Below are positions 1-9,647 of a DNA stretch of 9,647 bases, piece after piece (position 1 is the stretch's first letter; the number at the start of each line of letters is the position of its first letter). Where the stretch lies: the NCBI GenBank assembly GCA_021800805.1, contig JAJYYR010000022.1:1-9647 (forward strand). Reading direction: 5' to 3'. Source of the DNA: a bacterium. GTDB lineage: Bacteria > SZUA-79 > Acidulodesulfobacterales > Acidulodesulfobacteraceae. The notes under the pieces are model-generated. The model made no database searches. It was given only the letters and a program-made list of their open reading frames with translations, and had not been told where the DNA came from. Both the position numbers and the translations under genes were made by a program.

Positions 1-329
1 ATATTATTTATGAAAAAAATATATTCGTTTCGATAGAAAGAACTGAAAAGCCTTATGGAACGGACATCCTTTTCAAAAACGACGTTGCCCCGGGACTGAG
101 CCAGTTTTCTATAAGGGCGGGCTATTCAGAGGTCGTTGACGTAGAAGCGGTATTAAAAAAGTACAATATAGACGAAACCGTCATATTTTACGGCTTCGAG
201 GAAATAGTCAGCAATAATATATTTTGGAGGATATTTGCGCTTATTAAAAAACTGTCGCCTTCATTCGTTCGGTTTTACAAACTTCCCGCCGAAAAGGTCA
301 ACGGGGTCATGGTAAGGGTAAAAATGTAA
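1..329 (+). CDS. kup: KUP-family potassium uptake protein, C-terminal part (5' end outside window)
   Basis: This is the last 108 codons of a gene that enters from the left; complete codons start at base 3 and the stop is TAA at 327-329. The translation holds the motifs AGYSEVVDVEAVLKKY and FYKLPAEKVNGVMVRVKM. These match the layout of the cytoplasmic C-terminal domain of KUP/HAK potassium transporters: a GY/GW-x-E-x-x-(D/N)V-E segment, then a stretch like 'F.L/I P..+V...V.V' at the very end. No membrane segment is visible because the transmembrane part lies upstream of the window. KUP proteins take up potassium with protons at the inner membrane. The gene converges on the sox operon and is probably unrelated to it. 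Assignment rests on motif recall, not on alignment. Confidence 0.8.
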   Translation, partial: IIYEKNIFVSIERTEKPYGTDILFKNDVAPGLSQFSIRAGYSEVVDVEAVLKKYNIDETVIFYGFEEIVSNNIFWRIFALIKKLSPSFVRFYKLPAEKVNGVMVRVKM

Positions 330-1551: not shown

Positions 1552-2025
1552 TTACGGCTTAATATAAGCATAACCCTGCTGCTCTTTTTGCACTATATAA
1601 AAAATCGCCCCCGGATAAACCACGTCCACAAACGGGAAAAGGTCGCTCTTTTTTATATGGAGACCAATCATAGTCGTATGACAGGCCACTAATTTAACCC
1701 CGTAAGAATGAAGCGATTGAAGCATAGCGTAATATTTTTTATCGTACTTTTTCATAAAAAATTTAATCGCTGGACCATATGCGACTATAACAATTTTATA
1801 ATTTATAAAATGCTGGTCTGAAAACTTTACGTTATTTGATGCGTTTGAAACCAAAAGCCCCCATATTTTAGGATTGTCCGGCACCTGGTAAAGCTCTTTT
1901 AAATCATGATGCTTAAAATACGGTAGGGCTTGAATATCTTTGCCGTATGCCGCATTAAGAGAAAATGCAATTATTAAAATGCCTAAAAGCAAAGTAGATA
2001 TGCTTAATTTTTTAATTCCATGCAT
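1552..2025 (-). CDS. Periplasmic DsrE-family protein, second copy
   Basis: The protein has 157 residues: a signal peptide at about 1-28 (cleavage near AAYG/KD) followed by one DsrE/DsrF-like domain (COG1416 style). Family features visible are the YGP segment (83-85), then YGVKLVAC with Cys115, the core 'ACxxTM' motif, and the C-terminal QKEQQGYAYI (146-155), which matches the usual 'RQQEGYAYI' ending. Cys115 is the only cysteine, so it is the likely sulfur-binding residue. It is about 60% identical by hand count to the neighbouring copy at 2084-2554, with a one-residue gap after YGP, so the pair is a tandem duplication. A good AGGAGG ribosome site precedes the ATG. Members of this family often accompany sulfur-oxidation genes; the exact reaction of this exported type is not known to me. 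Confidence 0.82.
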   Translation of the reverse strand: MHGIKKLSISTLLLGILIIAFSLNAAYGKDIQALPYFKHHDLKELYQVPDNPKIWGLLVSNASNNVKFSDQHFINYKIVIVAYGPAIKFFMKKYDKKYYAMLQSLHSYGVKLVACHTTMIGLHIKKSDLFPFVDVVYPGAIFYIVQKEQQGYAYIKP

Positions 2026-2083
2026 AATATTTATCCTCCTTATTTTTTATAATTGGTTAACTTGATTGAATTAAGATTTTCGT

Positions 2084-2554
2084 TCACGCCGGTATATAGA
2101 CATAACCCTGCTGCTCTTTTTTAACTATATATAAAACGGCGCCGGGATAAACGATATCGGTTAATTTAAACAGTGCCCGCTTTTTAATATGCAATGTTTT
2201 CAAAGTCTCGTTGCATGCGACAAATTTAACGCCGTAAGATTTAAAACTTTGAATATCCGGATAGAACTTTTTATCGAATTTTTTCATTAAAAACCTGATG
2301 CCGATAGGCCCGTATGAAACAACGACAATCTTGTAATTCAAAAAGTATTTGTTCGAAAATATTATGCTGTTGGAAATATCCGAAACAATAAGCCCCCATC
2401 TTTTCGGATTTTGCGGAACGACATATATCTCTTTTAAGGTATGGCGTTTTAGATAATGAACTATATGGATATCCTTTGAATATGCCTGCTTATCAAGCAG
2501 GCATATTATTATAGTTAAAACGGCAATAAATAAAGTTTTATATAATTTTTTCAT
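2084..2554 (-). CDS. Periplasmic DsrE-family protein, first copy
   Basis: The protein has 156 residues: a signal peptide at about 1-26 followed by a single DsrE/DsrF-like domain. The conserved cysteine is Cys114 in YGVKFVAC; the only other cysteine (Cys18) is in the signal peptide. The C-terminus KKEQQGYVYI matches the family ending. The sequence differs from the second copy mostly at surface-type positions and in the loop after the cysteine (NETLKT against HTTMIG), so the two may bind different partners. The start is fixed by a near-perfect AAAGGAG ribosome site. The gene follows soxB by 39 bp. An unusual feature is a perfect 13-bp inverted repeat inside the signal-peptide codons (see the separate entry). 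Role is inferred: holding or transferring sulfane sulfur in the periplasm beside SoxYZ. Confidence 0.82.
   Translation of the reverse strand: MKKLYKTLFIAVLTIIICLLDKQAYSKDIHIVHYLKRHTLKEIYVVPQNPKRWGLIVSDISNSIIFSNKYFLNYKIVVVSYGPIGIRFLMKKFDKKFYPDIQSFKSYGVKFVACNETLKTLHIKKRALFKLTDIVYPGAVLYIVKKEQQGYVYIPA
2479..2507 (-). repeat. Perfect 13-bp inverted repeat (hairpin) inside the first dsrE-like gene
   Basis: The left arm is 2479-2491 (AATATGCCTGCTT) and the right arm is 2495-2507, its exact reverse complement, with only three bases (2492-2494) between. In mRNA this gives a long stable hairpin within codons 16 to 26 of the signal peptide, about 50 bases after the start codon and about 90 bases after soxB ends. 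It is the longest perfect inverted repeat I found in the window. The duplicated gene downstream does not have it at the matching place. It lacks a U-tract, so it is not a standard terminator. It could pause or process the mRNA between soxB and the distal genes. Confidence 0.85.
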
Positions 2555-2593: not shown

Positions 2594-4303
2594 CTATCCA
2601 GCCGTTCTTGAATGCCTGTAAATAACTTTTTCCGTATCGGCGGACATGACGGTTTTATGTTTTTTAATATATTCTGCAATGACGTCGCAGGCTTTGTATC
2701 CTGTCCTACCTTCATCTTTCGCGTTCATATGCTGCATCTTTCCGCCTGTGGAAACGGCCCAGTATTTCTTATTTAAATCCAAAGGTTTTCCGTTAATTTC
2801 CCATGTTTTTATTCTTTTAACTAACGGCTGATTTATTAAAATATGAAATTTAGAATTGGAAACGCGGGTTACGTCTCCTCCCATCTGCAAATAAGGGTCT
2901 TTTGCAAACGCATCGCTTAAAACGCTTAATTGCGATAACAATAGTTGTTTGCCGGTAAGAAGAGTCTTGTAAACCTCGGGATACGTCGTTCCGTATTCCC
3001 CGTAAACATTTTCCATCGTAATATCCGAACCGGGAAGCAATGTTTCCCCCCATCTCCAGCCGGGCGCGAAAAATAAAGGCGTGTCGAATTTTTCGTTAAA
3101 AGCCTGTCCGGCGAGGCTGTCCACCGTGCTTTCAAATGTGGCCCTTCTATATAATAGCGATTCGGTTTTTCCTAATTTTTCGTTAAGAACTTCTTTGAAC
3201 GGCGCATATTCTTGTTCGATTATTTGCCGGATATTTTCGTCCGGTTTAATCCAATCGGTTACGATAGGTATAAGTTTATGGTTATAATCAATAATTTTTT
3301 TGCTTTTAATATTCAAATCAAGCCTTCCTATAAATTTTCCGTGTGTTCCTGCCTGACAGATAACCGTGTTATTTATTATTTCCGGAACCGGAAGAATGTC
3401 GTGTGTATGTCCTCCTATAATTACGTCTATACCGTTTATTAAAGACGCAAATTTTCTGTCAACTTCCAGACCGTTATGGGAAAGGACGACTATCAGGTCA
3501 ACTTTTTTATTCTTAAGCTCGTTAACCATTTTTTGCGCATGAGACGTATCTATCCCGAAAGACCACCCGTCTGAAAAATGAGCCGGATGCGCCAGAGGAA
3601 CGTAAGGAAATGCCTGTCCGATTATACCTATGTTTAAACCGTTTACTTCTTTTATTATATAAGGTTTAAATATTAAATTATCCCAGTTGGAATCCCTTAC
3701 ATTCTGCGCAATAAACGGAAAATTTAAATTTTTAATATTTTCCAGCAATTGTTTTTTTCCGTATGTAAATTCCCAATGCCCAGTCATTGCATCGTAGCCC
3801 ATAGCGTTTTGAACCTTATAAACCGCCTTTCCTTTAGTCAGCAGCGCTATGCCGGTTCCCTGCCATGAATCGCCCGTGTCCAAAAGAATTGTTTTTCCGT
3901 ATCTTTCATTTCTTATTTTATTAATTATAGAAGCCATATGCGCATATCCGCCCATTAACCCGTATCTTTTATGATTATTTTCAAAATCTATATACGAACA
4001 AAAGTAGCCCATAGCCGATTTTGGGTCTATATCGTAATATAGATTAAAGGCATCGCCTACCAGATGACCGGGTCTTCCGTTCATATGCCGGGGCCCGATA
4101 TTTACAGACGGTTCTCTGTAAAGCATAGGGTTCAAATGGGCATGGGAATCGGAATTCCAAATAATAGTAAGATTTCCGGCAGGCTTGAATTTTAACAAAT
4201 TAACCGGATTGATGATAGCCGAAACGCCCAGAAGGCCGGCGTTTTTTAAAAAACTTCTCCTCGACAGGCCGTTTTTTACCTCAAAACCCTCATTTTTATC
4301 CAT
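2594..4303 (-). CDS. soxB: SoxB, di-manganese thiosulfohydrolase of the Sox pathway
   Basis: SoxB hydrolyses the terminal sulfone group from thiosulfate bound to the SoxY cysteine, releasing sulfate in the periplasm. The 569-residue length is normal for the family. A textbook Tat signal is present (SRRSFLK, residues 14-20), consistent with export of a folded metalloprotein. The metallophosphatase-like core shows the metal-binding motifs in order: D-S-H-A-H (52-56), GDSWQG (144-149), Gln-Asn with Asn201, SHNG (275-278), and GGHTHD (297-302). The SoxB hallmark TGHWEFTYG at 174-182 separates it from ordinary 5'-nucleotidases. The C-terminal 5'-nucleotidase-type domain follows. An AAGGGG ribosome site precedes the ATG. 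The gene sits 21 bp after the DUF302 gene and 39 bp before the dsrE-like pair. No catalytic residue appears missing. Confidence 0.96.
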   Translation of the reverse strand: MDKNEGFEVKNGLSRRSFLKNAGLLGVSAIINPVNLLKFKPAGNLTIIWNSDSHAHLNPMLYREPSVNIGPRHMNGRPGHLVGDAFNLYYDIDPKSAMGYFCSYIDFENNHKRYGLMGGYAHMASIINKIRNERYGKTILLDTGDSWQGTGIALLTKGKAVYKVQNAMGYDAMTGHWEFTYGKKQLLENIKNLNFPFIAQNVRDSNWDNLIFKPYIIKEVNGLNIGIIGQAFPYVPLAHPAHFSDGWSFGIDTSHAQKMVNELKNKKVDLIVVLSHNGLEVDRKFASLINGIDVIIGGHTHDILPVPEIINNTVICQAGTHGKFIGRLDLNIKSKKIIDYNHKLIPIVTDWIKPDENIRQIIEQEYAPFKEVLNEKLGKTESLLYRRATFESTVDSLAGQAFNEKFDTPLFFAPGWRWGETLLPGSDITMENVYGEYGTTYPEVYKTLLTGKQLLLSQLSVLSDAFAKDPYLQMGGDVTRVSNSKFHILINQPLVKRIKTWEINGKPLDLNKKYWAVSTGGKMQHMNAKDEGRTGYKACDVIAEYIKKHKTVMSADTEKVIYRHSRTAG

Positions 4304-4324: not shown

Positions 4325-4819
4325 TTAGAAACCGGTTTTTACGGAATTAATTATTCTTATTAATTTTTTTGTCGCCTTTAAAGCGGCTTTAACCGTAGTT
4401 TTGTTATTTTTAAAATAACGCATAAAATAGCTCGGCAAAAATGCAATTATTACGACATGATGCCGACCTTTTTTATATATGGCTATTCTGCAAGGCATAA
4501 GCGCCGCATAATTCATATCATGCTTTAGCAAGTCGTAGCCTATGGATGCGTTGCAAAGGTCTAAAACTTCAAGCTTGGATATTTTAAATCCAAACATCTT
4601 TAAGCCTTTGGAAATAGGCGTAGCGGCGGCAACGGTAAAGTTTTCCGCTATAACAGCCTGATTCAAATCAAAATACGCTCTTTTAAAGCTCTTTTTTATC
4701 TTTACGGCATAAAACGGACCATTAGGTATTTTAAGCGCAAAGGCGCATTTTGAAAGAAACGGTAAAACAAAAGCAATAAATATGAATATAAAAAATGTAA
4801 ACGTCGTTATTCTTTTCAT
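4325..4819 (-). CDS. Exported DUF302-domain protein within the sox operon
   Basis: The protein has 164 residues: a hydrophobic signal peptide (about 1-29, likely cut after AFA) and a DUF302 domain. The domain is recognised by two spaced elements, VLDLCNASIGYDLL (Cys89) and YAALMPCRIAIY (Cys110). They match the family pattern 'ACNP..A...L' followed by 'LLPCnVvvy'. Cys25 lies in the signal region as L-S-K-C, but lysine before the cysteine makes a lipoprotein site unlikely. It is placed between soxZ (15 bp gap) and soxB (21 bp gap), so it is surely co-transcribed with them. DUF302 proteins occur beside sulfur-oxidation genes in several bacteria; their function is unknown. With two conserved cysteines it may bind sulfur, a metal or a heme. 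I see no clear ribosome site, so it may rely on translation coupling with soxZ. Confidence 0.82.
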   Translation of the reverse strand: MKRITTFTFFIFIFIAFVLPFLSKCAFALKIPNGPFYAVKIKKSFKRAYFDLNQAVIAENFTVAAATPISKGLKMFGFKISKLEVLDLCNASIGYDLLKHDMNYAALMPCRIAIYKKGRHHVVIIAFLPSYFMRYFKNNKTTVKAALKATKKLIRIINSVKTGF

Positions 4820-4834
4820 TTTAAAAAATATTAT

Positions 4835-5164
4835 TTAGACGGCATTAATCATAACGGTCTTTTTATAAATATTGCCCTTAGTGTCGTACATTACAAACTC
4901 TAGAGGAGCTTTTTCGTCGGCCTTAACATAAAAAGACAGAAACGGATTTGCGGCGATACCTATGCCGTAGTTACAAGTCGTTATAAGCCTTTTATTATAA
5001 AATATGTTTACCTTGTAAATAATCCACCTCGGAATTTTTTTTCCGGTTTTTGGATCTTTTACAAGACCGGTATCCATAGGATGTTTCGTTAAACTAATAA
5101 TTTTTATAATACGTCCTTTTTTAACCTTATGGGGTACCCTTACTAATATTTCTCCTATTTTCAT
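4835..5164 (-). CDS. soxZ: SoxZ, partner subunit of the SoxYZ sulfur carrier
   Basis: This protein of 109 residues pairs with SoxY to form the carrier that holds sulfur intermediates during oxidation. It matches the SoxZ pattern closely: HPMDTG (28-33), then KDPKTGKKIPR with the family's 'IPR.II' motif (44-49), and IAANPFLSFY (70-79). It has no signal peptide, as usual for SoxZ, and is expected to be exported as a complex with Tat-bearing SoxY. A GGAG ribosome site stands upstream of the ATG. It follows soxY after 56 bp. Cys64 lies at the position just before the IAANP motif; I do not recall a cysteine as common there. Confidence 0.95.
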   Translation of the reverse strand: MKIGEILVRVPHKVKKGRIIKIISLTKHPMDTGLVKDPKTGKKIPRWIIYKVNIFYNKRLITTCNYGIGIAANPFLSFYVKADEKAPLEFVMYDTKGNIYKKTVMINAV

Positions 5165-5220: not shown

Positions 5221-5760
5221 TCAACATCCGCCTACCGTAACTTTAACGAGTTCTCTTCCGCCGTAAACCGTTCCGTCGGAATACTCCGCGAGAACCTGCA
5301 CGTAAGATTGTTGAAGAAGTTTTATTCTGGTAGAAATATAACCTCTTCCGTTAGCGGGGCTTAGTGAGAACGAACCGAGAAGGCGGCGCGGATTATTGAG
5401 GTCGCAAACATAAAATGTTTTAAGGTATTTCTGCGGCGACATAGGCAGTTTAACTTCCATAGTCAAAGGAACCATAGCGCCATCCTGAGCAATTAAAGGA
5501 AGCCTTAATTTCGGTATTAGGAGTTTCTGCTCCGGCGTGGGCGTTCCGGTAATCCATATAACCTTTTTACCGTTTATCTCCTTTATGTAAGCCTTTTTAA
5601 TTTTTATAGGTTTTAACGAAATTTTTTTAGATTCGGCATCTGCCGGCTTCAAAGCCGCTCCGATTAAACCGTCCGCTATTAAGGCAGAAACGGCAATTTT
5701 GATAGTTTTTCCAATAAAATCACGCCTTGGAATAAAATTTTCGGTTTTTTCTTTTTTCAT
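5221..5760 (-). CDS. soxY: SoxY, sulfur-carrying subunit of SoxYZ
   Basis: SoxY binds sulfur intermediates covalently on a cysteine in a flexible C-terminal arm. The 179-residue protein starts with a Tat signal (P-R-R-D-F-I-G-K, residues 11-18) and a hydrophobic stretch ending near PADA. The immunoglobulin-like domain follows, and the arm reads KVTVGGC at the end. The usual family ending is GGCGG, so this one stops directly after the active cysteine (Cys179). The sequence gives a clean TGA there; the next in-frame codons are Ala-Gly-Gly and then TAA. An AGGAGG ribosome site lies about 12 bases upstream of the ATG. The gene is 32 bp after the thioredoxin-like gene and 56 bp before soxZ. Confidence 0.94.
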   Translation of the reverse strand: MKKEKTENFIPRRDFIGKTIKIAVSALIADGLIGAALKPADAESKKISLKPIKIKKAYIKEINGKKVIWITGTPTPEQKLLIPKLRLPLIAQDGAMVPLTMEVKLPMSPQKYLKTFYVCDLNNPRRLLGSFSLSPANGRGYISTRIKLLQQSYVQVLAEYSDGTVYGGRELVKVTVGGC

Positions 5761-5792: not shown

Positions 5793-6329
5793 TTAAAAAC
5801 TATTTTTAAAGTATTTTCTCAAAGATTCTCTTTTATATGATTTACTTGATATCCAGCCTAGTACAAGCATAAAATCTTTTTTATTCCAATAACCGGGCAG
5901 ATAAAATATCTTTTTATAATGCGAATCAAAAAATAACGACGTCGGAAAGCCTATAATATTAAATTTGGACGATAATGATTTTCCGCCGTATTTCTTTCCG
6001 TCAAAAAATTTATACTTTCTGTCGCCGTAAGCATTTACCTCCACCGGATAAAAATTTTTATTTATTAAATCAATCACATCTCTTTCGGATAAAATATTCT
6101 TCTTGAACAATATGCAATATTCGCAGCCCGTTTCATGAAACCAGACAAAAAAAGGCTTTTTAAAATTTTTATTTTTTTTTATTGCCTTTTGAAAACTTAA
6201 CCAGCGTATCCCTGCCCCCGCCGTATTTTCGATTCCTCCAAAAAAAACAATCAGGAGCAAAAATACGGCGGCTGAGTTCTTTGAAATAATATAACGAATC
6301 ATTAAGTAATCTATGATTGCAATAAGCAT
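5793..6329 (-). CDS. Exported thioredoxin-like protein, SoxW type
   Basis: The protein has up to 178 residues. A hydrophobic export signal is followed by a thioredoxin fold with the redox motif CEYC (Cys69 and Cys72), a cis-proline segment GFPT (Pro129), and a C-terminal helix. The order 'WFHETGCEYC' then 'GFPTSLFF' then a 'GY' turn is that of SoxW and related periplasmic thioredoxins that reduce sulfur-linked cysteines, including SoxY. Start choice: ATG at 6329 gives a signal with ten extra residues, and no ribosome site is visible there. The second ATG at 6302 (MIRYIISKN) gives a more ordinary signal peptide, so 6302 may be the true start. It is the first gene of the sox operon, downstream of the tandem palindromes. 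Possible gene name soxW; I left the symbol open because assignment rests on fold and position. Confidence 0.8.
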   Translation of the reverse strand: MLIAIIDYLMIRYIISKNSAAVFLLLIVFFGGIENTAGAGIRWLSFQKAIKKNKNFKKPFFVWFHETGCEYCILFKKNILSERDVIDLINKNFYPVEVNAYGDRKYKFFDGKKYGGKSLSSKFNIIGFPTSLFFDSHYKKIFYLPGYWNKKDFMLVLGWISSKSYKRESLRKYFKNSF

Positions 6330-6509
6330 ACCATTAATGCAAAACTATATTTTTTTATCCTAAAAAAATAAATTTATTGCGCTGTATATGAACTTGCGGG
6401 AACTAATCGCGAAAAATTATACGGGAAGTATATGATAAAATATGGATGATATTTTCAAGAAAGTCCGAAAATGGACAGACCGTTGTCCTAAAATGGACAA
6501 TTATATGTT
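6330..6509 (-). promoter_or_regulatory. Control region of the sox operon
   Basis: This gap of about 180 bp separates the response-regulator stop from the first sox gene. It holds the two tandem palindromes (separate entry). Further toward the gene is a perfect TATAAT on the minus strand (6416-6421), but I see no -35 box at the right distance. A TTGAAA box lies at 6453-6458 (minus strand), too far from TATAAT and poorly placed for other -10 sequences. A GG-N10-GC sigma-54 promoter is not evident on the minus strand. If TATAAT is used, the leader would be about 80 bases long. No gene was found here on either strand. Confidence 0.55.
6463..6500. promoter_or_regulatory. Two tandem palindromic activator sites, 22 bp apart
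   Basis: Site 1 (6463-6476) reads GTCC-N6-GGAC. Site 2 (6483-6500) reads TTGTCC-N6-GGACAA, a perfect 6-bp-armed palindrome. Centre-to-centre distance is exactly 22 bp, two turns of DNA, so two dimers would sit on the same face. The spacers are also alike (GAAAAT and TAAAAT on the plus strand). This is the style of enhancer sites for NtrC-type activators, whose Fis-type DNA-binding helix gene ends only 9 bases away. The likely binder is therefore the adjacent response regulator; this is inference from position and shape. Confidence 0.72.
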
Positions 6510-7874
6510 TTATTTGAAAAGATTGTACTTTTTCATCTTAGTTATAAGCTGTTTTCTTGATATGCCGAGTGCGGCGGCAGACTTAGTCTGATTGAAACCG
6601 TTTTCCCTGAGCACCCGTTTAATTAACCCTGTTTCTACGCATTCGAGTTTTATACTGCCGGAGGTTAAATCGTTTTGGTTTTCATCGTCTTTTACGCCGG
6701 ATTCTTCGTTAATCAATGTTTTTGGAAGGCAGGACGGTTCAAGTATATCGTACGGAGAAATAATGACCGCACGCTCTATAATATTTTCAAGTTCTCTTAT
6801 ATTTCCGGGATAATTATAATTCATCAATAATTCTATCGCTCCATCGGAAATAGATTCTATATTCTTTTTGTTCAGTTCGCTGTATTTTTTAACGAAAAAA
6901 TTAGCAAGCGGAATTATATCGTCTCTTCTTTCTCTTAGGGGCGGAATTTTAAAATGGAGCACGTTTATTCTATAAAAAAGGTCTTCTCTGAATTTTTTTT
7001 CGATAACCGCCTTTTCAAGCTCTATATTCGTAGCGCAAATTATTCTTGCGTTAAGTTTGATTTTTAAATTAGACCCTATCCTGAAAAATTCTTTATCCTG
7101 TATTGCCCTTAGCAATTTCGCCTGCGTAAATAAAGGCATTTCTCCTATTTCGTCTAAAAAAAGCGTTCCTCCTTCGGCTGCTTCGAATTTTCCCTTTTGC
7201 ATCGATATTGCGCCTGTATAAGACCCCTTTTCATGTCCGAAAAATTCGTTTTCCAAAAGGTCTATAGGCACCGCACTGCAATTTATAGGAACAAATTCCC
7301 CGTTTCTATCCGACAAATTATGTATAATTCTTGCAATAAGTTCTTTTCCGGTTCCCGTTTCACCGGTTATTAGAATATTCGACATGGATTTAGCCGTTAA
7401 ATAAATCTCGCTTAAAATCTCGCCGATTTTAGGGCTTTTAAATATAAAACCGCCTTTAATCTTTGATAGGGCTTCGTCCTCCGTTGTTTTTACATCGGTA
7501 GATTTCCTGCCTTTGTTTCTATTTAAAAATATATTTAAGTTAAAAGCGAGCCCTTCTATATCGACAGGCTTAGAGATAAAGTCGTCGGCGCCGAGTTTCA
7601 TTGCGTAAACCGCCTGTTCGATATTTCCGAATGCGGTAATAATTATAAAAACAATCTGCTTATCAAGGCTTCTAACCTTGGAGAGAAGTTCGATGCCGTT
7701 CATTCCTGATAGTTTCAGGTCGCACAATATTGCATCGTATTTTTTTTCTAAGAAAAGATCTAATCCATGCTCGGCGCTTATAGCCGTATCCACGAGGAAA
7801 CCTTTTTTTATCAAGTTAAGGCTTACCACCCTTAAAAGATTTTTTTCATCGTCTATTAATAAGATTTTAACCAT
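6510..7874 (-). CDS. NtrC-family sigma-54-dependent response regulator
   Basis: The protein of 454 residues has three parts. The receiver domain (about 1-120) has the acid pair D8/D9, phospho-acceptor D52, T80 and K102. The AAA+ sigma-54 interaction domain (about 143-385) shows Walker A GETGTGKE (171-178), the sigma-54 contact loop GSYTGA (217-222, a variant of GAFTGA), Walker B TLFLDE (237-242), and the arginine-finger segment FREDLFYRI (295-303). The Fis-type helix-turn-helix at about 416-452 contains NQTKSAAALGISRKQL. No key residue is missing, so it should be a working phosphorylation-controlled activator. An AGGA ribosome site lies in the 22-bp gap after the kinase gene, so the two form an operon. 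The target is probably the sox operon, because paired palindromes stand right after this gene. Confidence 0.95.
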   Translation of the reverse strand: MVKILLIDDEKNLLRVVSLNLIKKGFLVDTAISAEHGLDLFLEKKYDAILCDLKLSGMNGIELLSKVRSLDKQIVFIIITAFGNIEQAVYAMKLGADDFISKPVDIEGLAFNLNIFLNRNKGRKSTDVKTTEDEALSKIKGGFIFKSPKIGEILSEIYLTAKSMSNILITGETGTGKELIARIIHNLSDRNGEFVPINCSAVPIDLLENEFFGHEKGSYTGAISMQKGKFEAAEGGTLFLDEIGEMPLFTQAKLLRAIQDKEFFRIGSNLKIKLNARIICATNIELEKAVIEKKFREDLFYRINVLHFKIPPLRERRDDIIPLANFFVKKYSELNKKNIESISDGAIELLMNYNYPGNIRELENIIERAVIISPYDILEPSCLPKTLINEESGVKDDENQNDLTSGSIKLECVETGLIKRVLRENGFNQTKSAAALGISRKQLITKMKKYNLFK

Positions 7875-7896: not shown

Positions 7897-9348
7897 TCAC
7901 GACACTTGCCCGGGTTGGCGCAATATCGGAATAGTTACGTTAAAGACCGTCCTTTTTTTATTGCTTTGAACGTTTATGGTTCCACCGTGAAGCTTAATTA
8001 TCCGCAACGATATCGGAAGCCCGAGTCCCGAACCGGCGTTTTTAGTAGTAAAAAACGGTTTAAATATATTTTCTATATTTTCTTTGGTAATAGGCTGTCC
8101 GTTGTTTTCTATTTGAATATTTAAATCACCGTTTTTAACTATAGTTTTTACTTTTATAACCTTATCTTCAAATTCGGCTGACGCAAAAGAATTTGCTGCG
8201 CATGTTGCGTCAATCGCATTTACTATCAAATTGAGTATAACCTGTTTTAACAATTCGGGGTCTCCGTTTATAATCGGAATATTGCCGTCTAAATCTTTAA
8301 TTAGTTTTATATTAAAATTTGCCAGTTCAAATTTAGATATGCTAAGGGAATCATTTATAAGCTTATTTATATCTAAAGGCGTTAATTCGGGACTTCTCTG
8401 GCGGGAAAAACTCAAAAAATCTACCGTCATACGGTTTAGCCTGTTAACCTCGTTATTAATTATACCTGCGAACTCCTCTACGATTTTATTTTTTGTTTCA
8501 TGGGCAATGTAATTATTGGCGGAGGAAATAATATATATGGCATTTTTTATTTCATGGGCAATGTTTGCGGACATTTCTCCCATAATAGCCATACAGTTCA
8601 ATTCATTTTTCTCTTTATTTATCGAATCAATTCTTTTCATATAATCTTCTATCGCATAAGCCATTGAGTTAATTGCGTTTATAACGCTTCCGATTTCATC
8701 GTTAAATTTGCTTTTAAAATTTATTTTATAATTTCCGCTTTTTATTTCTTCTATATTCTTTTTTATTTCGGATAAAGGTTTTGTCAAAAAAACCGTTATC
8801 ATATAAAACATAAAAAGCCCCAGAGCAATAAATCCGGCGGCAATTACGAGAAATCTTATTCCGACCCAAAAAACCCGGACTTTTACGCCATTTAACTCTT
8901 GTTTTAAATTAAATTTTACGGCAAGCGTTCCTAATCTTTCCCCGTTATAACTCAGTTTCTTTAATAATAATCCGCTATTCCTTTTATAACCATTGTTACT
9001 GCCATATAAATAAAACCTGTTATTCAAAAAATGTTTACCGCGGCTTATTATTAAATCTCCTTTTGCGCTATATAAACTTAATCCTTCTATTTTGCGGTGT
9101 TTAATAATGTAGCTTAAATAATTTTTAATAAATTTTATCTTTTTCGTATATAAAGGATATTTTAGGGAGGAAACTATAACTTCGGCTAATCTTTCATTTT
9201 TAAGCGAATTTCTATAGTAAAGAGTTTTATATATAGTCCAGAGAAAAATACCGTCGCTCATAAAAATAGTAAAGAAAAAAATAATAAAAGCGCTGGACAG
9301 TATTTTCCACTTTATACTTAAATTTTTAATAAAATTAAACATCGGCAT
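7897..9348 (-). CDS. Membrane sensor histidine kinase, NtrB/PAS-less type
   Basis: The protein of 483 residues has a first membrane helix at about 14-41 and a periplasmic region of about 120 residues (42-160). A second helix follows at about 162-187, then a HAMP linker to about 240. The HisKA segment carries His265 in SANIAHEIKN, and the ATPase domain ends in GSGLGLPIS (439-447). The N-box is ILNLIVNAID (371-380, Asn377). In the G1 box the usual D-x-G-x-G reads N-N-G-Q-P; Asn in place of Asp is a known variant. It should phosphorylate the adjacent NtrC-type regulator (22 bp downstream). The periplasmic region shows no domain I can name, so the signal is unknown; a periplasmic sulfur compound would fit the neighbouring sox genes. 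The start is supported by a GGAG ribosome site 8 bases before ATG 9348. Confidence 0.93.
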   Translation of the reverse strand: MPMFNFIKNLSIKWKILSSAFIIFFFTIFMSDGIFLWTIYKTLYYRNSLKNERLAEVIVSSLKYPLYTKKIKFIKNYLSYIIKHRKIEGLSLYSAKGDLIISRGKHFLNNRFYLYGSNNGYKRNSGLLLKKLSYNGERLGTLAVKFNLKQELNGVKVRVFWVGIRFLVIAAGFIALGLFMFYMITVFLTKPLSEIKKNIEEIKSGNYKINFKSKFNDEIGSVINAINSMAYAIEDYMKRIDSINKEKNELNCMAIMGEMSANIAHEIKNAIYIISSANNYIAHETKNKIVEEFAGIINNEVNRLNRMTVDFLSFSRQRSPELTPLDINKLINDSLSISKFELANFNIKLIKDLDGNIPIINGDPELLKQVILNLIVNAIDATCAANSFASAEFEDKVIKVKTIVKNGDLNIQIENNGQPITKENIENIFKPFFTTKNAGSGLGLPISLRIIKLHGGTINVQSNKKRTVFNVTIPILRQPGQVS

Positions 9349-9511
9349 TCAAATCTCCGGAAACACTCAATAACAAACGATGGTCAACCTTACATTCCGT
9401 GAAAAAATATATTTGGTCGTCTAACTCGATATCGCATATCGCGGCAGGACATTCTCGCATATCGCATTCACAACTGCGAAATGCAGTTATCGGATACGTC
9501 GTAAAGCGGAT
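9349..9511 (-). promoter_or_regulatory. Gap between lgt and the kinase gene with short repeats
   Basis: The gap of 163 bp contains the direct repeat TCGCATATCGC at 9432-9442 and 9455-9465 (23 bp apart, close to two DNA turns). It also holds a perfect 6-bp inverted repeat with a 5-base loop at 9472-9477 and 9483-9488. The hairpin begins about 24 bases after the lgt stop but has no U-tract, so its role as a terminator is weak. The direct repeats could be operator sites for the kinase-regulator operon. No convincing -35/-10 pair was found. Confidence 0.4.
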
Positions 9512-9647
9512 TTAGATGCTTTTATACTTATAGTGCCTGTAAATCAAAACGCCGATAGAAATAATAACGGCAAACATGCTTAAAACCTGCGACACCCTTA
9601 TGCTGTTTCCGAGCCATAAACTGTCGATTCTCGTTCCTTCGGTAAAA
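9512..9647 (-). CDS. lgt: Prolipoprotein diacylglyceryl transferase, C-terminal part (5' end outside window)
   Basis: The last 44 codons are present (first complete codon ends at base 9646 on the plus strand; stop TAA at 9512-9514). The segment FTEGTRIDSLWLGNSIRVSQ is the conserved Lgt C-terminal signature ('FFxEGLRTDSL...RVSQ/AQ'). It is followed by a final membrane helix (about residues 21-35 of this fragment) and the basic tail YRHYKYKSI. Lgt adds the diacylglyceryl group to lipoprotein cysteines at the inner membrane, a housekeeping step. It lies on the same strand as the kinase and regulator but is separated from them by 163 bp. Confidence 0.88.
   Translation of the reverse strand, partial: FTEGTRIDSLWLGNSIRVSQVLSMFAVIISIGVLIYRHYKYKSI

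Follow-up and report, generated by a model that had tools for sequence, protein, structure and literature searches.

A dyad pair ahead of a sox operon in Acidulodesulfobacterales as the probable upstream activating sequence of a TspS/TspR-type circuit

Control of sox genes by a sigma-54-dependent two-component system is already on record, although the original prediction for the DNA analyzed here had presented such control as uncommon. Li et al., in 2017, reportedly described the circuit of Acidithiobacillus caldus that consists of TspS/TspR, an upstream activating sequence (UAS) and the sox-II operon, and their abstract is said to have noted similar clusters and sites in other chemolithotrophs, so an overlap with the Aquificota result presented below is possible. 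The part of a review dealing with this system describes TspS/TspR as sigma-54-dependent and located ahead of sox-II, with the UAS TGTCCCAAATGGGACA (PMC6335251), and its role is repeated in passages of two further papers (PMC12194929; PMC10318464), one of which also states that in some alphaproteobacteria an ArsR-family regulator, SoxR, binds sox intergenic stretches (PMC10318464). In the literature covered, mostly outside subscription journals, the UAS string was found in the former review alone, and no work was found that joins TspR with Sulfurihydrogenibium, with Acidulodesulfobacter or with the sox genes of Aquificota.

The window, by which we mean the whole stretch of 9647 bases that was analyzed, belongs to the Acidulodesulfobacterales and presents the following features, in minus-strand order:

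7897-9348, minus strand: sensor histidine kinase, TspS-like, the proposed partner of the regulator (HAMP, HisKA and HATPase domains)
6510-7874, minus strand: NtrC-type response regulator, TspR-like (receiver, sigma-54 AAA+ and HTH_8 domains; placed in a tree)
6483-6500 (18-bp form), no strand: promoter-distal dyad TTGTCC-TAAAAT-GGACAA, core GTCCTAAAATGGAC at 6485-6498, centre 6491.5
6463-6476, no strand: promoter-proximal dyad GTCC-GAAAAT-GGAC, GTCCGAAAATGGAC, centre 6469.5, proposed UAS for the adjoining regulator
6316-6335, minus strand: putative sigma-54-type promoter AATGGTATGCTTATTGCAAT, GG at 6332-6331, GC at 6320-6319
5793-6302, minus strand: thioredoxin-like protein, first gene of the operon (Thioredoxin_2 match; relatives aligned)
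5221-5760, minus strand: soxY (Pfam SoxY, above cut-off)
4835-5164, minus strand: soxZ (above the Pfam and NCBIfam cut-offs)
4325-4819, minus strand: DUF302 protein (domain match)
2594-4303, minus strand: soxB, thiosulfohydrolase (TIGR04486, above cut-off)
1552-2554, minus strand: two DsrE-type genes, possibly in the same transcription unit (Pfam DsrE for 1552-2025 only)

Read from 9348 to 412, the minus strand thus carries the kinase, the regulator, the dyads, the thioredoxin-like gene, soxY, soxZ, the DUF302 gene, soxB, the two DsrE-type genes and a gene for a 364-aa protein, with the kinase-regulator pair directly upstream of the sox operon and on the same strand, as is the case for TspS/TspR. 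Since the intergenic gaps between 6329 and 412 measure 15-58 bases on a single strand, one operon is plausible. The soxY product stays under the NCBIfam SoxY_true cut-off (78.5 vs. 125 bits). The first gene, which had been named soxW, lies downstream of the dyads; its protein matches Thioredoxin_2, and its three NCBIfam matches are all below cut-off, none of them being SoxW. Neither soxX nor soxA is among the 10 window proteins scanned. The DUF302 gene occupies the place between soxZ and soxB at which one Aquificota locus (L121) has a soxA-like cytochrome. The two adjoining genes behind soxB resemble each other, and the 364-aa protein at the operon end (412-1506) looks by eye like an outer-membrane protein and matches nothing in Pfam or NCBIfam at 1e-3; the C-terminal part of a potassium transporter (K_trans_C, 3-329, plus strand) faces the operon. 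The nearest named relative of the regulator belongs to Candidatus Acidulodesulfobacterium sp. H_13 (P0125, 75%), and a SoxB relative to Candidatus Acididesulfobacter diazotrophicus (P0009, 79%), the two matches on which the placement of the window in this lineage is based. The presence of soxA, soxB, soxY and soxZ has been reported for three of four Acidulodesulfobacterales genomes, in a paper that does not contain the words "two-component" (PMC6776010).

As to the dyads, the original prediction of two GTCC-N6-GGAC palindromes, placed between an NtrC-type regulator and sox genes, is confirmed by the DNA: the pattern occurs exactly twice in the 9647 bases, with centres 22 bp apart, the second copy is extended to TTGTCC-N6-GGACAA, both spacers (GAAAAT and TAAAAT) are A-rich, and the pair lies between the regulator and the thioredoxin-soxYZ genes, the distal dyad in its 18-bp form being 9 bases from the regulator stop codon. 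Dinucleotide shuffles of the window (2000) gave a mean of 0.022 strict sites per window, with at least two sites in a single shuffle and a pair within 40 bp in none, and a chance origin of the pair was set aside on this ground. When one mismatch is allowed, there is still no third site in the window (0.81 expected from the shuffles). Measured against the fuller pattern TGTYCC-N4-GGRACA, the proximal dyad matches 9 of the 12 fixed positions (in a 16-base frame) and the distal one 10; both are without the inner C-G pair, and the distal dyad retains the core TGTCC-N6-GGACA. The window dyad appears to be a variant of the TspR UAS as quoted in the review (PMC6335251), a likeness in support of NtrC-type control of sox.

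The original prediction noted the dyads and overlooked the putative sigma-54-type promoter at 6316-6335. Among the GG-N10-GC sites of the window, both strands included, it ranks first, scoring 8.1 against 2.8 for the runner-up under a matrix built from 24 Aquificota sox promoters; these training sites themselves score 19.0-26.8, for which reason the window promoter is regarded as a weak variant. Its score was reached in 6 of 1000 shuffles of 6302-6510 on the minus strand, and the distances from its -12 to the upstream dyad centres are approximately 150 and 172 bp. Transcription would start near 6307, which is only about 5 bases ahead of ATG 6302; this counts against the TspS/TspR reading, together with the low promoter score and the dyad matches of 9 and 10 of 12. 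The start of the thioredoxin-like gene in the list of open reading frames, ATG 6329, overlaps the promoter; ATG 6302 is the likelier true start, both because ATG 6329 falls within the promoter and because a relative, P0245, begins at the place equivalent to 6302. An alignment has M-L-I-A retained at the place of ATG 6302 in four relatives with longer frames (P0241-P0244), the remaining two (P0246 and P0247) diverging there; if this methionine is an ATG start, its retention would imply the DNA sequence ATG-N6-GC, which fits a retained -12.

A SoxB scan of genome contigs yielded 588 loci, of which the best 80 were kept, none of these being titled as Acidulodesulfobacterales, and scans of viral contigs with the regulator of a relative and with the window SoxB gave no matches in either case. 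The most extensive comparison is provided by Aquificota, represented by 41 genomes from the family of a Sulfurihydrogenibium genome, a family that we take to be Hydrogenothermaceae. One example is the locus of Sulfurihydrogenibium sp. ARK-13 (L004), which has the kinase, regulator, dyads, thioredoxin gene, soxY, soxZ and soxB in that order, soxX (L186 in the soxX set) being located after the dyads and before the thioredoxin gene. A regulator match at 1e-95 or better was found in 26 of the 41 genomes, as was a soxX match at 1e-20 or better (26 of 41). Two of the soxX loci (L171 and L181) have only 33 and 130 bases upstream and were left out, and 23 of the 24 evaluable regions contain a dyad TGTYCC-N4-GGRACA at 11/12 or better before soxX, the exception being L188, in whose soxX upstream region there is none; in 200 rounds of shuffling these regions, a mean of 0.06 of 24 had a dyad, with a maximum of 2. 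As the genomes are related, the 24 regions are not independent cases. A pair of dyads at 10/12 or better is present in 19 of the 24, with a spacing of 21-23 bp in nine and of 32-35 bp in ten and none intermediate, that is, about two or three helical turns; four regions (L172 and L177-L179) have a single dyad only. A TGGCA-like -24/-12 element is recognized, under a loose rule, at 24 of the 26 soxX loci, 17 with GC at -12 and seven with a non-C base. At 11 loci whose fetched flank contains no regulator (L172, L173, L175, L176, L180, L183, L184, L185, L187, L189, and L190), the dyad still precedes soxX, which argues that the dyad is not merely a signal at the 3' end of the regulator gene.

Across the same 41 genomes TGTYCC-N4-GGRACA occurs at 78 sites (column sums), vs. 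21 for a reversed control pattern. Thirty of the 78 sites were turned into loci (L135-L164) and inspected: nine immediately precede a soxX match (L138, L139, L141, L144, L147, L148, L152, L163, and L164), one (L145) lies before thioredoxin-soxY-soxZ with no soxX match, 17 are inside stop-to-stop frames of at least 90 codons elsewhere, and three (L135, L159, and L162) are outside such frames, the L159 site being within a 54-aa frame. In these genomes the motif thus clusters at sox, with further sites elsewhere. Two of the last three sites deserve mention in their own right. At L135 (G007, approximately 1340-1516), a perfect dyad and a TGGCA-type promoter are followed, in that direction, by no listed open frame of 100 aa, and an inverted repeat with a T run after it, read by eye, comes about 100 bases on; this element is a candidate small RNA that may be co-regulated with sox. 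At L162 (G037, approximately 1501), a perfect dyad with a degenerate second one lies upstream of a 463-aa non-sox protein, possibly a further target.

Similar arrangements occur in the class of a Hydrogenophilales genome (G048, carrying L049), presumably Gammaproteobacteria, in which 193 of the 369 sampled genomes match the Aquificota regulator at 1e-95. At each of the five best matches (L203-L207), soxY is found in the flank and the regulator is preceded by a kinase match. Three of them (L205-L207) possess a 12/12 dyad whose start is 12-14 bases away from the regulator stop codon, counted from its first base, with a TGGC-type promoter approximately 149-230 bp beyond it; the two best by score (L203 and L204) have no dyad at 11/12 or better within 600 bases from the regulator stop, with sox genes adjoining. 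The phylum of G005, presumably Nitrospirota and so labelled here, has the regulator at 1e-108 or better in 25 of 198 genomes. L233-L256 were rejected as members of the circuit, the 1.5 kb fetched at each of these 24 loci having no match to soxX, soxY, soxZ or soxB; a DUF302 match is found at L234 alone, and a dyad at 11/12 at four of the 24 (L234, L237, L238, and L254). Another locus from this phylum, L005/L083, was rejected as well, its kinase and regulator lying approximately 2 kb behind soxB but without a dyad after the regulator, and so was L025, where a regulator of 36% identity lies ahead of sox genes but no dyad at 11/12 is present.

On the evidence of these comparisons, the two dyads of the window are very probably the UAS of a TspS/TspR-type circuit. 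This interpretation has good support, the kind of control being already known from TspS/TspR of A. caldus. The proposal that an NtrC-type regulator acts on sox through paired dyads is strongly backed by the comparison: both in Aquificota and in the class of G048, regulators related to that of the window adjoin a sox operon or share a genome with one, and the same type of dyad and a -24/-12-type promoter go with these operons. Three other readings have been weighed. If the dyads instead bound some other factor, an ArsR-type SoxR or an unlinked regulator, with the adjoining NtrC-type regulator acting elsewhere, the precedent would be the SoxR of some alphaproteobacteria mentioned in one source (PMC10318464), and binding of the dyads by the adjoining regulator is itself a prediction; yet the scan of 10 window proteins gave no ArsR-family match at 1e-3, the association of related regulator, dyad and promoter with sox recurs in two other groups, and the TspR UAS, as published in the review excerpt, shares its half-site with the window dyads, making this reading very unlikely. 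The idea that the dyads act in the RNA, as hairpins with which the regulator transcript ends and which serve as a terminator or processing signal, and not as protein-binding DNA, draws on the ability of both to fold as short minus-strand hairpins (z-score of -2.27, with 4 of 200 shuffles equally or more stable). We set it aside as highly improbable because a terminator scan reports the distal dyad for the plus strand alone, opposite to the regulator transcript, and because dyads precede soxX at the 11 Aquificota loci that have no regulator in the fetched flank.

The proximity of the distal dyad to the regulator stop codon could also be taken to mean that the dyads control the operon of the regulator only, any effect on sox being incidental. 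The sites are, however, downstream of the regulator, nothing above 9/12 is found ahead of the kinase (9349-9647), and in Aquificota the dyads accompany soxX even where the regulator is elsewhere, leaving this the least credible reading, with hardly any probability of its own.

A tree of 78 regulators was midpoint-rooted, with lineage labels inferred in part from similarity or from the genome searched. In this tree the 16 rows assigned to Acidulodesulfobacterales, the window included, neighbour the 23 Aquificota rows (99/96), and five rows from the class of G048, together with seven Nitrospirota rows, join these two groups at 86/76, which is not firm. The recognition helix LGISRKQLRTKM is present in all 23 Aquificota rows, in 5 of 5 rows from the class of G048 and in 6 of the 16 from Nitrospirota, but in none of 18 other paralogues; as Nitrospirota rows bearing it show no sox match in the fetched flank, this helix alone is no marker of sox control. 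The helix of the window regulator, LGISRKQLITKM, differs from it in one residue, and 39 relatives from a protein search fall into several helix classes, with I, R or another residue at the variable place. One may speculate that the TspR-sox circuit is an old module whose half-site was kept across phyla and whose specificity shifted in part of the Acidulodesulfobacterales: the change from QLRTK to QLITK (Arg to Ile) would go together with the disappearance of the inner C-G pair, and the resulting insulated GTCC-N6-GGAC code would drive a sox operon without soxX and soxA. The association of Ile with the lost pair is seen at one locus with known DNA, and L183 and L184 each have one window-type dyad (TGTCCTTTTATGGACA) beside a full one in genomes that carry QLR-type regulators, for which reason we rate this proposal as doubtful. 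An observation apart concerns L234, L237 and L240, from the phylum of G005, whose sister regulators have an altered helix (LGITRRQLRTKM in L240, similar in the other two); the regulator stop is followed by paired half-sites of the TGTTCA type, and TGGCA-like promoters precede genes with no sox match.

The mechanism proposed here, in which binding, phosphorylation, sigma-54 dependence and the signal are predicted, starts from the sites, promoter sequence, domains and cross-phylum conservation observed. The membrane kinase would sense a reduced sulfur compound, thiosulfate being the published proposal for TspS, and would phosphorylate the NtrC-type regulator, whose dimers would occupy both dyads on the same helix face, two turns apart. 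The regulator would then assemble into an AAA+ ring and, through a DNA loop of approximately 150-170 bp, reach the sigma-54 RNA polymerase located at 6316-6335, activating thioredoxin-soxY-soxZ-DUF302-soxB from the -24/-12 promoter. The switch reported for Acidithiobacillus would in this way be extended to an uncultivated lineage from acid mines and, by comparison, to Aquificota, a different phylum with heat-loving members, suggesting that sigma-54 two-component control of sox is widespread and no peculiarity of one genus. The combination of a dyad pair at two or three turns, a -24/-12 element and sox genes offers a searchable signature that could predict sox regulation in uncultured genomes, and one helix residue together with one base pair present concrete changes bearing on how an activator chooses its sites. 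What is new is the Acidulodesulfobacterales lineage, the apparent phasing of the dyad pairs by two or three helical turns, the site variant that lacks the inner C-G pair, and an operon in which soxX and soxA are missing.

Compared with the systems described so far, the window regulator has a domain plan and sequence similarity in common with NtrC-family activators of solved structure, its best PDB matches by sequence being 4l4u, 1ny5 and 3dzd, which we take to be NtrC1 and NtrC4 of Aquifex aeolicus. The ArsR-type SoxR of alphaproteobacteria also controls sox genes, but it belongs to another protein family. The Aquificota loci (L121 and L004 among them) resemble the window in having dyads, a -24/-12-type promoter and then sox with thioredoxin and DUF302 genes, and the 21-23 bp class of their pairs is the spacing class of the window pair; they differ in that their half-sites are mostly fuller (TGTYCC), their promoters are nearer to the consensus, the distance from the proximal dyad centre to -12 is approximately 62-120 bp vs. 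approximately 150 bp in the window, and L121 possesses soxX and soxA. With TspS/TspR of A. caldus the window shares a two-component pair of the sigma-54-dependent type directly before a sox operon and a palindromic UAS with the half-site TGTCC. The review excerpt gives one UAS sequence for A. caldus (PMC6335251), while the window has two dyads, 22 bp apart, both lacking the inner C-G pair. The gene order in A. caldus is soxXYZA-hyp-soxB, while that of the window is thioredoxin-soxY-soxZ-DUF302-soxB, without soxX or soxA, these two genes being a feature of the A. caldus cluster rather than of the switch.
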